Assembly: GCF_900186955.1 (NCBI RefSeq)
Contig: NZ_LT906438.1
Span: 1,240,001-1,304,000, forward strand
Source: Bacillus pumilus
GTDB lineage: Bacteria; Bacillota; Bacilli; Bacillales; Bacillaceae
DNA length: 64,000 nucleotides
Direction: 5' to 3'
In this document: piece after piece, positions 54,451-56,195 of the stretch
Position numbering within the stretch: the stretch's first letter is position 1
How the letters are laid out: every line of letters begins with the position of its first letter
Program-made: the position numbers and the translations under genes
The notes under the pieces: model-generated
What the model was told of the DNA's origin: nothing
Database searches by the model: none
The model's input: only the letters and a program-made list of their open reading frames with translations

Positions 54451-54470
54451 CAGTGTGTCAACAATATGAG

Positions 54471-54624
54471 ACTTCGTTAGGTGAGGCTCCTGTATGGAGA
54501 TACGCTGCTGCCCAAAAATGTCCAAAGACGCCAATGGGTCAACAGAAATCATCGACATAAGGTGATTTTTAATGCAGCTGGATTTTTCCTATGCCATACA
54601 GTGCTAAAGCTCTACGATTGAAGG
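54471..54624 (+). ncRNA. M-box (ykoK) magnesium riboswitch
   Basis: Contains the conserved M-box blocks CTTCGTTAGGTGAGGCTCC, TACGCTGCTGCCCAAAAATG, CGCCAATGGGTCAACAGAAA and CATAAGGTGATTTTTAATG, closing with CTACGATTGAAG. Magnesium binding should promote the terminator at 54649 and shut off mgtE. Confidence 0.93.
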
Positions 54625-54648
54625 AGCAAGTGTTTATTTGTCATGCTT

Positions 54649-54684
54649 ACAAAGCGCCTTCATTCGGTTGAAGGTGCTTTTTTA
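54649..54684 (+). terminator. M-box terminator
   Basis: AAAGCGCCTTCA pairs with TGAAGGTGCTTT, followed by TTTT; the expression platform of the riboswitch. Confidence 0.85.
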
Positions 54685-54704
54685 TGAGAAAAGGAGGTGT
54701 GGGG

Positions 54705-54797
54705 ATGGATCATCCCGATTCGAGACACATAGAGGATATGTCAAAAGATCAGATTGAGACATCAGATAGAGGAGATCCTGACCCCCGCACATTCTAA
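54705..54797 (+). CDS. Candidate 30-codon leader peptide of mgtE
   Basis: Open frame with an excellent ribosome binding site (AAAGGAGGTG, 5 bases before ATG). It lies between the M-box terminator and mgtE. The product starts MDHPDSRHIEDMSKDQIETS and ends in an acidic, proline-containing tail (DRGDPDPRTF). This recalls the MgtL leader of enteric bacteria, whose Pro/acidic codons sense magnesium through ribosome behaviour; no homology is implied. Codons 23-27 form one arm of alternative hairpins that control access to the mgtE Shine-Dalgarno. Expression is not proven. Confidence 0.55.
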   Translation: MDHPDSRHIEDMSKDQIETSDRGDPDPRTF

Positions 54798-54829
54798 GGG
54801 ATTCGGGTATCTCCTGACTTTGGGGAGGT
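54771..54829 (+). promoter_or_regulatory. Mutually exclusive hairpins at the mgtE ribosome binding site
   Basis: ATCTCC (54809-54814) can pair with GGAGGT (54824-54829, the mgtE Shine-Dalgarno; one wobble pair). It can also pair with GGAGAT (54771-54776) inside the leader ORF, extended by ACCC/GGGT (54781-54784 with 54805-54808). The second structure is longer and frees the Shine-Dalgarno. A ribosome on the last leader codons would disrupt it. Regulation is inference. Confidence 0.5.
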
Positions 54830-54836
54830 AACAGCG

Positions 54837-56195
54837 ATGATACAAAATATTACGTATGATGAACTCATTTTACGCATCATTATTTTACTAAGAGATGGAA
54901 AACGAAAAGAATTTAAAAACATCATGGAAGAACTTCAACCATATGATATGGCCTATTTATTTAAAGAGCTTCCAGAGAAACACCGCGGCCGCTTCCTCAG
55001 CTTTTTACCAGTCGATGACGTGACAGAAATGATGGGTGAGCTGGAGCGGGAATATCAAGAAATTGTTCTTGAAAAAGTAGGTAAAGACAAAGCGACCTTC
55101 GTCACAAACAAAATGGATAACGATGATCTAGCCAACTTGTTTGATGAGATGGAGGATGAGCTAAAGGATCAGCTTTTATCTAACATGGAAGCAGAGGAAT
55201 CCAAGGCCGTCCAGCTTCTTATGAATTATCCTGCTGAGACAGCGGGACGGATCATGACCAACCGTTATGTTTGGATTCCTCAGCATTTTACAGTGCAGGA
55301 TGCCGTTGTGAAGCTGAAAAGCTTTGCTGAAATTGCGGAATCAATCAACTATTTATATGTGATTAATGATCAAAAACAGCTTGTAGGCGTTCTCTCATAC
55401 CGGGATCTCATTTTAGGTGAACCGGATGAAAAGGTACAGGATCTCATGTTTACAAGAGTCATTGCCGTTGGAGCCTTTCAAGATCAGGAGGAAATCGCAA
55501 AGCTGATTGAACGATATGATTTCCTTGCGATTCCTGTTGTGGAAGAGAACAATGTCCTAGTCGGAATTGTTACAGTCGATGATATCATTGATGTTGTGAT
55601 TCAAGAGGCGGGCGAAGACTATGAAAAGTTTGCTGCCTCTGGTAAAGATATCACGTTCGACACGCCGGCATTTGTGGCGGCATACCGCCGTCTTCCGTGG
55701 CTCATTTTGCTCTTGTTCATTGGGCTGATTTCAGGCAGTATTTTAAATTATTTTGAAGGTACCCTTCAGCAAGTCGTTGCTTTAGCGTTCTTCATGCCGA
55801 TGATTGCCGGGATGACAGGGAATACAGGGACACAGTCTCTTGCCGTCGTCATTAGAGGGCTTTCAAAAGAAGAATTAACGAAAAAAACCATCATGCGCCT
55901 TATTTTTAGAGAGCTGAGAACGAGTATTTACATTGGGATTGTCTGTTCCATTATTATTACAGTCGTCGCAATGGTGTGGCAGGGCAATATGATTTTAGGT
56001 TTTGTTGTCGGTTCCTCACTGCTTGCAACACTGATTATTGGGACAATGGCAGGTACGGTTGTACCGATTATTTTACACAGATTAAACGTGGACCCAGCCA
56101 TTGCATCTGGGCCGCTAATCACAACATTGAATGATATTTTATCCTTACTGATCTATTTTGGAATTGCAACTGCATTCCTTCATACACTGATGTAG
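54837..56195 (+). CDS. mgtE: Magnesium transporter MgtE
   Basis: 452 residues. N-terminal helical domain (1-125), tandem CBS domains (about 135-255, for example VVEENNVLVGIVTVDDIIDV), a connecting helix and five membrane helices (from about 283) with the pore motif GMTGNTGTQSLAVVIRGLS. It is gated by cytoplasmic Mg2+. B. subtilis name ykoK; the same M-box leader. ATG follows GGGGAGGT. Confidence 0.95.
   Translation: MIQNITYDELILRIIILLRDGKRKEFKNIMEELQPYDMAYLFKELPEKHRGRFLSFLPVDDVTEMMGELEREYQEIVLEKVGKDKATFVTNKMDNDDLANLFDEMEDELKDQLLSNMEAEESKAVQLLMNYPAETAGRIMTNRYVWIPQHFTVQDAVVKLKSFAEIAESINYLYVINDQKQLVGVLSYRDLILGEPDEKVQDLMFTRVIAVGAFQDQEEIAKLIERYDFLAIPVVEENNVLVGIVTVDDIIDVVIQEAGEDYEKFAASGKDITFDTPAFVAAYRRLPWLILLLFIGLISGSILNYFEGTLQQVVALAFFMPMIAGMTGNTGTQSLAVVIRGLSKEELTKKTIMRLIFRELRTSIYIGIVCSIIITVVAMVWQGNMILGFVVGSSLLATLIIGTMAGTVVPIILHRLNVDPAIASGPLITTLNDILSLLIYFGIATAFLHTLM

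Follow-up and report, generated by a model that had tools for sequence, protein, structure and literature searches.

In Salmonella, the upstream open reading frame (uORF) mgtQ lies between mgtC and mgtB and has 8 codons, and mutations together with compensating mutations support its pairing arms (PMC8092293). Asp2 and Glu5 of mgtQ, which are said to destabilize ribosomes, were required for regulation (PMC8092293). MgtL, the enteric leader of mgtA, carries an EPDP motif, and a toeprint placed its Pro3 in the P site (PMC11282234). In Mycobacterium tuberculosis, a small open reading frame (ORF) called uORF2 or Rv1805A lies behind an M-box, and its authors regarded the peptide as specific to mycobacteria and suggested a protein role (PMC12810186). 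We describe a candidate leader of this kind between the M-box Mg2+ riboswitch and the Mg2+ transporter gene mgtE of Bacillus pumilus. It lies in a window of 64,000 nucleotides, the whole stretch of DNA that was analysed (positions 1,240,001 to 1,304,000 of NZ_LT906438.1, assembly GCF_900186955.1).

By computation, the start of this leader ORF is conserved and of acidic and proline character, four RNA arms have the potential to pair, and the fold responds to a ribosome masked onto the RNA. We propose that the leader peptide runs a translational attenuator in series behind the M-box, and we give this reading a probability of about 0.63. The features of the locus are listed below by their position in the window.

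54466 to 54629, forward strand: M-box (ykoK) Mg2+ riboswitch aptamer (Rfam RF00380, 148.2 bits, E 1e-34)
54651 to 54683, forward strand: intrinsic terminator of the M-box, stem 54651-54662/54669-54680 plus T-run, identified by eye
54691 to 54697, forward strand: Shine-Dalgarno of the leader, AAGGAGG, read from the sequence
54705 to 54797, forward strand: leader ORF, ATG at 54705, 30 codons, TAA at 54795-54797; the conserved part is MDHPDS, codons 1-6
54692 to 54715, forward strand: arm 1, leader Shine-Dalgarno plus codons 1-4 (AGGA, GTGTGGGG, GGATC, TCC), from the minimum-energy fold and cognate pairing tests
54771 to 54795, forward strand: arm 2, GGAGATCC...CCCCGCAC...TTCT, leader codons 23-30 plus the first stop base, predicted to pair with arm 1 or arm 3
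54798 to 54815, forward strand: arm 3, GGG...TCGGG.ATCTCCT, the anti-Shine-Dalgarno, predicted to pair with arm 2 or arm 4
54823 to 54830, forward strand: arm 4, Shine-Dalgarno region of mgtE, GGGAGGTA, predicted to pair with 54808-54815 in the closed state
54837 to 56195, forward strand: mgtE, Mg2+ transporter gene, 452 amino acids (Pfam MgtE PF01769, MgtE_N PF03448, CBS)

The aptamer score of 148.2 bits compares with a gathering score of 44, and the intrinsic terminator follows the aptamer. The terminator was read by eye only and is absent from the output of a simple terminator scan of the window. An initial annotation, made by a model from the letters of the window, had placed a 30-codon ORF with a near-ideal Shine-Dalgarno between this terminator and mgtE, and the ORF is indeed there, with an ideal Shine-Dalgarno, and encodes MDHPDSRHIEDMSKDQIETSDRGDPDPRTF. 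The three hexamers that it named are exact as well (ATCTCC at 54809-54814, GGAGGT at 54824-54829 and GGAGAT at 54771-54776), and so is their ACCC/GGGT extension (54781-54784/54805-54808). A longer in-frame start at 54684 was rejected, its ATG being missing in four loci (L010, L011, L012, L013; L and G numbers denote our loci and genomes).

The locus resembles Salmonella mgtQ, which is likewise a short ORF with a strong Shine-Dalgarno and an acidic residue 2, acting at the translational level (PMC8092293). There, pairing of arms 1:2 and 3:4 gives the closed state and pairing of arms 2:3 the open state, and a ribosome on arm 1 opens the ribosome site of the transporter gene. The window also has a short ORF with a good Shine-Dalgarno ahead of a Mg2+ transporter gene. 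However, mgtQ lies inside an operon of a Gram-negative bacterium, has 8 codons and is not joined to a riboswitch, whereas the Bacillus leader start usually adds a Pro, and its ORF continues through arm 2 and often through arm 3. The two are likened by layout and not by shown relatedness. An acidic residue 2 is recurrent in the leaders studied here, and acidic codons of mgtQ are said to destabilize ribosomes.

With MgtL, the leader shares an alternation of acidic residues and Pro at residues 2-5 and its place ahead of a Mg2+ transporter gene. The window leader has D2 and P4 (MDHPDS); the likeness is closer in some other leaders, with PEPEPE or DPDS starts, and there is none in others. MgtL acts via Rho-dependent transcription termination, whereas in Bacillus the mgtE ribosome site, downstream of the intrinsic terminator of the M-box, seems to be the target. 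In ermC-type translational attenuators, early stalling of a ribosome in the leader ORF switches the hairpins that hide a downstream ribosome site. The trigger there is an antibiotic, whereas here it would presumably be Mg2+-sensitive translation of acidic and proline codons.

The mgtE M-box of B. subtilis (RF00380) has the same aptamer and terminator upstream, and the control described for it is the terminator, with no account of the segment from terminator to mgtE in the literature consulted. In M. tuberculosis, uORF2 is also a conserved small ORF behind an M-box, with a conserved N-terminus and a Pro at position 7 in most peptides (PMC12810186). However, the M-box itself hides the ribosome site of that uORF and termination is Rho-dependent (PMC12810186). 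In the window, an intrinsic terminator separates the aptamer and the leader, and the ribosome site of the leader is predicted to pair with arm 2 (fold of 54683-54861, downstream of the aptamer). For these bacteria, a literature search, with subscription papers mostly outside it, gave no description of a leader peptide between an M-box and either mgtE or corA. The proposed leader would have a logic like that of mgtQ and MgtL, coupled to a riboswitch, in another phylum. The nearest known systems are the mycobacterial M-box uORF2 (PMC12810186) and the enteric leaders.

Candidate leaders behind other M-boxes

With the local DNA as query, matches were found in 42 of 44 genomes of the genus, and the M-box itself was found in 43 of 44. 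Loci were taken from 80 mgtE neighbourhoods (the best 80 of 444 relatives) and from M-box loci of genomes of the genus, family and order. Before the blind ORF test, 36 of 122 loci were left out because no M-box fitted a simple pattern there, along with 26 duplicates and with L212, which has no M-box pattern. Ten loci with a doubtful main gene were left out too (L155, L158, L162, L163, L169, L173, L175, L202, L209, L210). The final set contained 139 non-redundant M-box loci, with 123 mgtE (by tblastn), 10 corA and 6 mgtC genes. Pfam confirmed 6 of 6 mgtC and 6 of 10 corA genes.

In the blind test, the single ORF with the best Shine-Dalgarno was taken at each locus, and the control consisted of 2,660 dinucleotide-shuffled mgtE and corA loci. 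Because the loci are kin, the 123 mgtE loci are not independent cases; 106 of them had such an ORF, versus 44.9% of the shuffles. Residue 2 was Asp or Glu in 87 of 123 (4.7% of the shuffles), and an acidic residue 2 was combined with a Pro in residues 3-10 in 77 of 123 (1.2%). At the corA loci the blind choice was positive in 4 of 10, and several of the remaining ones start MG..DDP or MG...EPDPP. None of the 6 mgtC loci had a leader of this type in the blind test; mgtC is an imperfect control, with gaps of 48 to 161 bases, most of which offer little space for an ORF.

When an acidic start was permitted as a criterion, leaders were curated at 124 of the 139 loci, including three doubtful picks (L049, L064, L140). 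The 15 loci without a leader are 8 mgtE, 1 corA and 6 mgtC loci. From a phylum-wide M-box search, 40 matches were examined, of which 38 belong to other classes and 2 to the class of B. pumilus. At 14 of these 40 loci, residue 2 was acidic in the ORF with the best Shine-Dalgarno, a count made with no shuffle control, and 7 of the 14 also had a Pro. Starts in this sample include MDPDPGSS, MDADPDDL and MEDPYPGYP. Judged by their sequences, putative leaders follow the M-boxes ahead of most of the examined mgtE and corA genes in the order, and some are found in other classes of the phylum. The comparison also supports the suggestion of the initial annotation that a leader with acidic and proline codons is stacked behind the M-box, and it supports conservation in the genus Bacillus.

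A leader query from the subtilis group matched 5 protein clusters. The named ones are hypothetical proteins, one of them labelled Bacillus subtilis. A search for plasmid carriage of the subtilis-group leader gave no match.

Other arrangements were also seen around M-boxes and mgtE genes. M-boxes before an NRAMP-type gene (L169) and an ABC permease gene (L155), both called by Pfam, are each followed by a leader-like ORF with a Shine-Dalgarno (MDDVPGGS... and MDGGSRLC...). Two loci (L162, L173) have, by eye, an M-box, a TTG-started leader (MDSSPEPD...) that is overlapped by a long out-of-frame ORF, and a gene that seemingly encodes only the membrane part of MgtE. Some genomes contain three M-boxes (G084, G194, G244), and the six copies examined before mgtC are without this leader type. 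Six mgtE loci from Rossellomorea and Bacillus sp. strains (L074, L077, L080, L081, L091, L096) have no M-box by pattern. They have a common hairpin, approximately AGGAGATACTA...GTATCTCC, roughly 50-110 bases upstream of mgtE, and no Rfam match to it was found in the four loci tested (L074, L080, L091, L096). In ten genomes (G003, G005, G009, G011, G015, G033, G035, G036, G038, G040) a second site fits the leader-start pattern with 3 mismatches (GAGGTGTTGATGATGGAGCCTCC...), and this site may be the start of an unrelated gene.

Conservation of the leader start

The leaders start with MDHPDS in the B. pumilus group and with MDSPHS in the licheniformis and subtilis groups. Elsewhere the starts include MDSSPSPR, MDSSPEPDS, MDSYPEPEPEPE, MDPDS, MDAEDPCS and MGTDDPNP. 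The Shine-Dalgarno matches at 6 or 7 of 7 positions in the 42 non-redundant leaders of the genus Bacillus. Over 49 sequence clusters, Asp and Glu prefer residues 2, 4 and 6, and Pro prefers residues 3, 5 and 7. The mean number of Pro in residues 2-10 is 1.37 per leader in frame 0 versus 0.73 and 0.37 in the other frames, and it falls to 0.21 for Shine-Dalgarno-led ORFs of the window and to 0.04 for the downstream genes. The leader Pro residues draw on all four Pro codons. Acidic residues in the same region number 2.04 in the leaders versus 0.92 in the window ORFs, and the downstream genes are never acidic at residue 2. In this 49-cluster test the count of acidic residues at position 2 is circular, as it was a selection criterion, and the blind count is the one given above.

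Codons 2-9 encode identical amino acids in 17 of 17 pumilus-group leaders, with two silent variants; figures of zero amino-acid change from groups defined by their N-terminus are partly circular, and the selection test was redone on groups assigned only from the downstream gene. Among the 8 leaders of the MDSSPSP group, pairwise comparison of codons 2-9 gave 0 amino-acid and 22 silent differences, and the ratio of nonsynonymous to synonymous differences (pN/pS) was 0.93-0.97 afterwards. The pN/pS was 0.21 in codons 2-9 versus 1.2-1.8 later in the MDS-PEP group (4 leaders), 0.66 at the start versus 0.9-1.2 later in the group with MDNYSRR and MENDPCS leaders (13), and 0.72 versus 0.8-0.9 in the group with MDSDS leaders (4). 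Over codons 10-28, pN/pS did not fall below 0.93 in the MDSSPSP and MDS-PEP groups. The leader start appears to be conserved as a peptide in several groups, and in Bacillus also as RNA, and the remaining ORF appears not to be held as a peptide.

The length of the leader varies. Among the 17 non-redundant pumilus-group leaders, 13 have 30 codons, 3 have 41 codons (by a one-base change in a C-run) and 1 has 37 codons. In the licheniformis group the stop lies directly after arm 3 in 8 of 9 leaders. Two leaders are very short: that of Bacillus sp. SD075 (L052) stops after MDNYSR, 6 residues, and that of Bacillus sp. BA3 (L082) after MDNYSRRHTRE, 11 residues. The Shine-Dalgarno and the start are intact in both, and their shortness fits a function that is confined to the first codons.

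Four arms and a masked ribosome

In the predicted best fold of the window locus, arms 1 and 2 pair at 54697-54704/54783-54790 (8 pairs), 54707-54711/54774-54778, 54713-54715/54771-54773 and 54692-54695/54792-54795, and arms 3 and 4 pair at 54808-54815/54823-54830, covering the mgtE Shine-Dalgarno. When a ribosome is masked at codon 3, arms 2 and 3 pair (54770-54776/54809-54815 and 54777-54781/54803-54807) and the mgtE site is largely freed. In the model, the 1:2 and 3:4 pairings exclude the 2:3 pairing, and 3:4 covers the mgtE ribosome site. A switch between hidden and free states of this site by mutually exclusive pairings had been proposed in the initial annotation, and such pairings are supported by the folding and by the anchored comparison of the arms described below. 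Arm 1 (54692-54715), which pairs the leader ribosome site and codons 1-4 with the DPDP codons near the leader end, is a fourth arm that was not part of that proposal.

The window was masked with four choices of region and three footprints. The accessibility of the mgtE Shine-Dalgarno was 0.005-0.14 in the free RNA and rose to 0.46-0.69 when the P site was placed at codons 1-4. At codon 5 it was 0.00-0.64 and varied with the assumed footprint, and at codons 6 to 28 it was mostly under 0.2, with single values up to 0.43. The scan over other loci was made without six leaders (L049, L060, L061, L064, L065, L140). In the pumilus group the accessibility was 0.06 in free RNA, 0.56-0.65 at codons 1-5 and 0.01-0.12 at codons 7-29. 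From free RNA to a mask at codon 3, the group means changed from 0.06 to 0.65 in the pumilus group, from 0.20 to 0.55 in the subtilis plus licheniformis groups, and from 0.33 to 0.44 in the others.

As a control, shuffling was confined to the bases from the mask to the Shine-Dalgarno of the gene (49 cluster representatives, 30 replicates). A mask at codon 3 raised the accessibility by 0.149 on average (free 0.320, masked 0.469), versus a change of -0.011 in the shuffles (free 0.457, masked 0.446), whose replicate means had a standard deviation (SD) of 0.017 and a maximum of 0.018. None of the 30 shuffles equalled the gain of the window locus (L001). Arm 1 paired with its own downstream stretch at a mean of -27.1 kcal/mol versus -21.9 kcal/mol (SD 0.5) with permuted partners, and the lowest of 10,000 permutations was -24.0 kcal/mol. 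Because the leader and the downstream stretch have a common base composition, the own stretch of each locus was also shuffled. These shuffles had a mean of -20.0 kcal/mol and a lowest replicate mean, of 100, of -21.1 kcal/mol, and in 27 of 49 loci at most 5 of 100 were as strong as the cognate pairing.

A plain alignment of the 42 genus leaders with RNAalifold was discarded. MAFFT had misplaced the subtilis arms, and therefore anchored arms and pairing energies were used. The 2:3 core was anchored on GGAGA and TCTCC/TCTTC, which occur in 42 of 42 leaders (one with TCTTC). The sixth 2:3 pair, which lies outside the anchors, switches between T-A and C-G from group to group, with 25 TA, 1 TG, 16 CG and none broken. 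The initial annotation had looked to an alignment of leaders for a kept ORF, a kept DPDP tail and compensatory changes in the arms. The ORF start is kept and the sixth pair changes on both sides, whereas the tail is not kept and the outer pairs are ragged.

Proposed mechanism, alternatives and meaning

In transcripts that pass the M-box terminator, the ribosome site of the leader would be exposed first. With no ribosome on the first codons, arm 1 would pair with arm 2, arm 3 would mask the mgtE Shine-Dalgarno in arm 4, and mgtE would be closed. A ribosome held at the acidic and proline start would cover arm 1, arm 2 would capture arm 3, and mgtE would open. With the ribosome beyond codon 6, the closed state would re-form. 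The trigger, by analogy with MgtL and MgtQ, would be ribosomes that translate the M-D-x-P start slowly or abort on it, which scarce Mg2+ would favour. We propose opening by such slow or abortive translation because the mgtQ layout matches and the Pro3 toeprint of MgtL falls in the opening codon window. In this reading, the leader would be translated, ribosomes would pause or abort at its start, and Mg2+ would be the setter in the cell, in the direction given here. In Bacillus, selection may act on the peptide rather than on RNA pairing alone.

Several results weigh against this reading, as does the partial circularity noted above. No such leader was found in 9 of 133 mgtE or corA loci of the curated set, and some leader starts, for example MDNYSRR, have no Pro. 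The starts of the downstream genes are as acidic as those of the leaders (1.98 versus 2.04). A Metabacillus-type group (8 leaders) has a pN/pS of 1.2-1.4 throughout. Among the 42 Bacillus leaders, codons 2-6 are near fixed in nucleotides (synonymous differences, pS, 0.028), and the pumilus group departs from the rest of the genus at residues 3 and 5 (pN/pS 4.55, and near 1 past codon 6). Grouping by the downstream gene therefore made selection on amino acids in Bacillus less probable. Because amino-acid-level selection is not general in these groups, RNA pairing may explain part of the conservation of the start. In the masking control, the gain was above 0.3 in only 11 of 49 representatives and above all 30 shuffles in 16 of 49; most of the remaining representatives change little, and a few lose accessibility. 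The gain in the subtilis group is only 0.20-0.31 in 13 of 16 leaders and 0.16 in two, and there is a loss in one (L116). In several genera the mgtE Shine-Dalgarno is already open in the modelled free RNA, and a mask at codon 30 can reopen the mgtE site of the window (0.01-0.48). In 6 of 49 loci a swapped arm pairs, on average, more strongly than the cognate arm, and in 2 of 49 the cognate pairing is weaker than its own shuffle mean. The first five 2:3 pairs are no test because the core served as the anchor, and the outer 2:3 pairs are ragged outside the licheniformis group.

The initial annotation had proposed three arms, with ribosomes at the DPDP tail freeing ATCTCC to hide mgtE, and with drop-off at DPDP or the absence of a ribosome leaving mgtE open. 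The three arms exist, 2:3 and 3:4 are mutually exclusive, and mgtE is predicted to stay mostly closed with a ribosome at codons 22-28 (0.00-0.23). However, the free RNA is predicted to be closed when arm 1 is included (0.005-0.14, against 0.46-0.69 with codons 1-4 occupied), and since arm 1 was unseen, the default state was probably wrong. Among the curated leaders the DPDP tail is confined to the pumilus group, in 16 of 17 (L014 has DADP), and RNA structure alone can explain its conservation because the DPDP codons pair with the ribosome site of the leader. The end of the ORF is not fixed either: 4 of 17 non-redundant pumilus-group leaders stop elsewhere, and therefore what happens at the last codons is not what has been conserved. 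We consider this scheme very improbable, and the sensing site was probably misplaced at the tail instead of the start. Its net direction, in which trouble in the leader at low Mg2+ would turn mgtE on, survives in the attenuator proposed here, with another site and mechanism.

Simple translational coupling would make the peptide sequence irrelevant, with the leader merely bringing ribosomes to the mgtE start and stopping just before its Shine-Dalgarno. The leader end lies a median of 24 bases before the downstream start (49 representatives), and the Shine-Dalgarno also tends to open when the last codons are masked, as coupling would have it. We nevertheless regard coupling as unlikely, for acidic and proline starts recur, some groups show constraint at the amino-acid level, and in the window strain and 12 of 16 other pumilus-group leaders the stop lies 39-40 bases before mgtE, between arms 2 and 3. 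If the element were a structured RNA or the site of an RNA-binding protein, the peptide would have no role and the start codons would be kept for arm 1 pairing; the almost fixed nucleotides around the start in Bacillus and the pairing of arm 1 agree with this. The Shine-Dalgarno and the in-frame start are, however, kept across genera, with varied codons that give the same acidic and proline character, and codons 2-9 of the MDSSPSP group have silent but no amino-acid changes, which makes such an element quite unlikely. Least probable is a small protein with MgtE or something else as its target, like enteric MgtR, MgtU or MgtS. Its start is conserved and a few genomes annotate a hypothetical protein, but evolution is near neutral beyond about residue 9, the length is 16 to 45 residues among representatives, and the reading frame shifts inside the pumilus group. 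The whole ORF as a small protein was rejected, as the later codons drift.

The attenuator reading can be extended, tentatively and at somewhat less than even odds, to a two-stage control of Mg2+ that would be widespread in the phylum. Transcription attenuation by the M-box would be followed by an acidic and proline leader peptide that reads ribosome performance. The two stages would gate mgtE, corA and perhaps an NRAMP-type transporter, and would have evolved independently of enteric mgtL and mgtQ. Reporters may also be affected. Free Mg2+ with wild-type ribosomes was compared to that with L22-variant ribosomes by means of a reporter that carries the full-length 5' untranslated region (UTR) of mgtE, and the legend describes its M3 control as expressed in the wild type (PMC11567004). 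Such full-UTR M-box reporters are possibly confounded, because the UTR should contain the leader ORF. If so, the signal with the L22 variant would partly reflect how ribosomes handle the leader, and some of it may have a source other than free Mg2+. EF-P, YfmR and YkpA of B. subtilis affect the translation of Asp-Pro or charged stretches (PMC11381351), and the leader model yields predictions for efp, yfmR and ykpA mutants.

An mgtE gene behind an M-box is a textbook riboswitch gene, and an enteric-like Mg2+ leader seems to sit between the two in B. subtilis and many of its relatives. If this is true, translation would provide Mg2+ uptake with a second sensor, comparable to that of enteric bacteria, and the likeness would point to convergent evolution. 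Existing mgtE mRNA could then respond to Mg2+ and to the state of the ribosome, beyond the free Mg2+ at the time of transcription.

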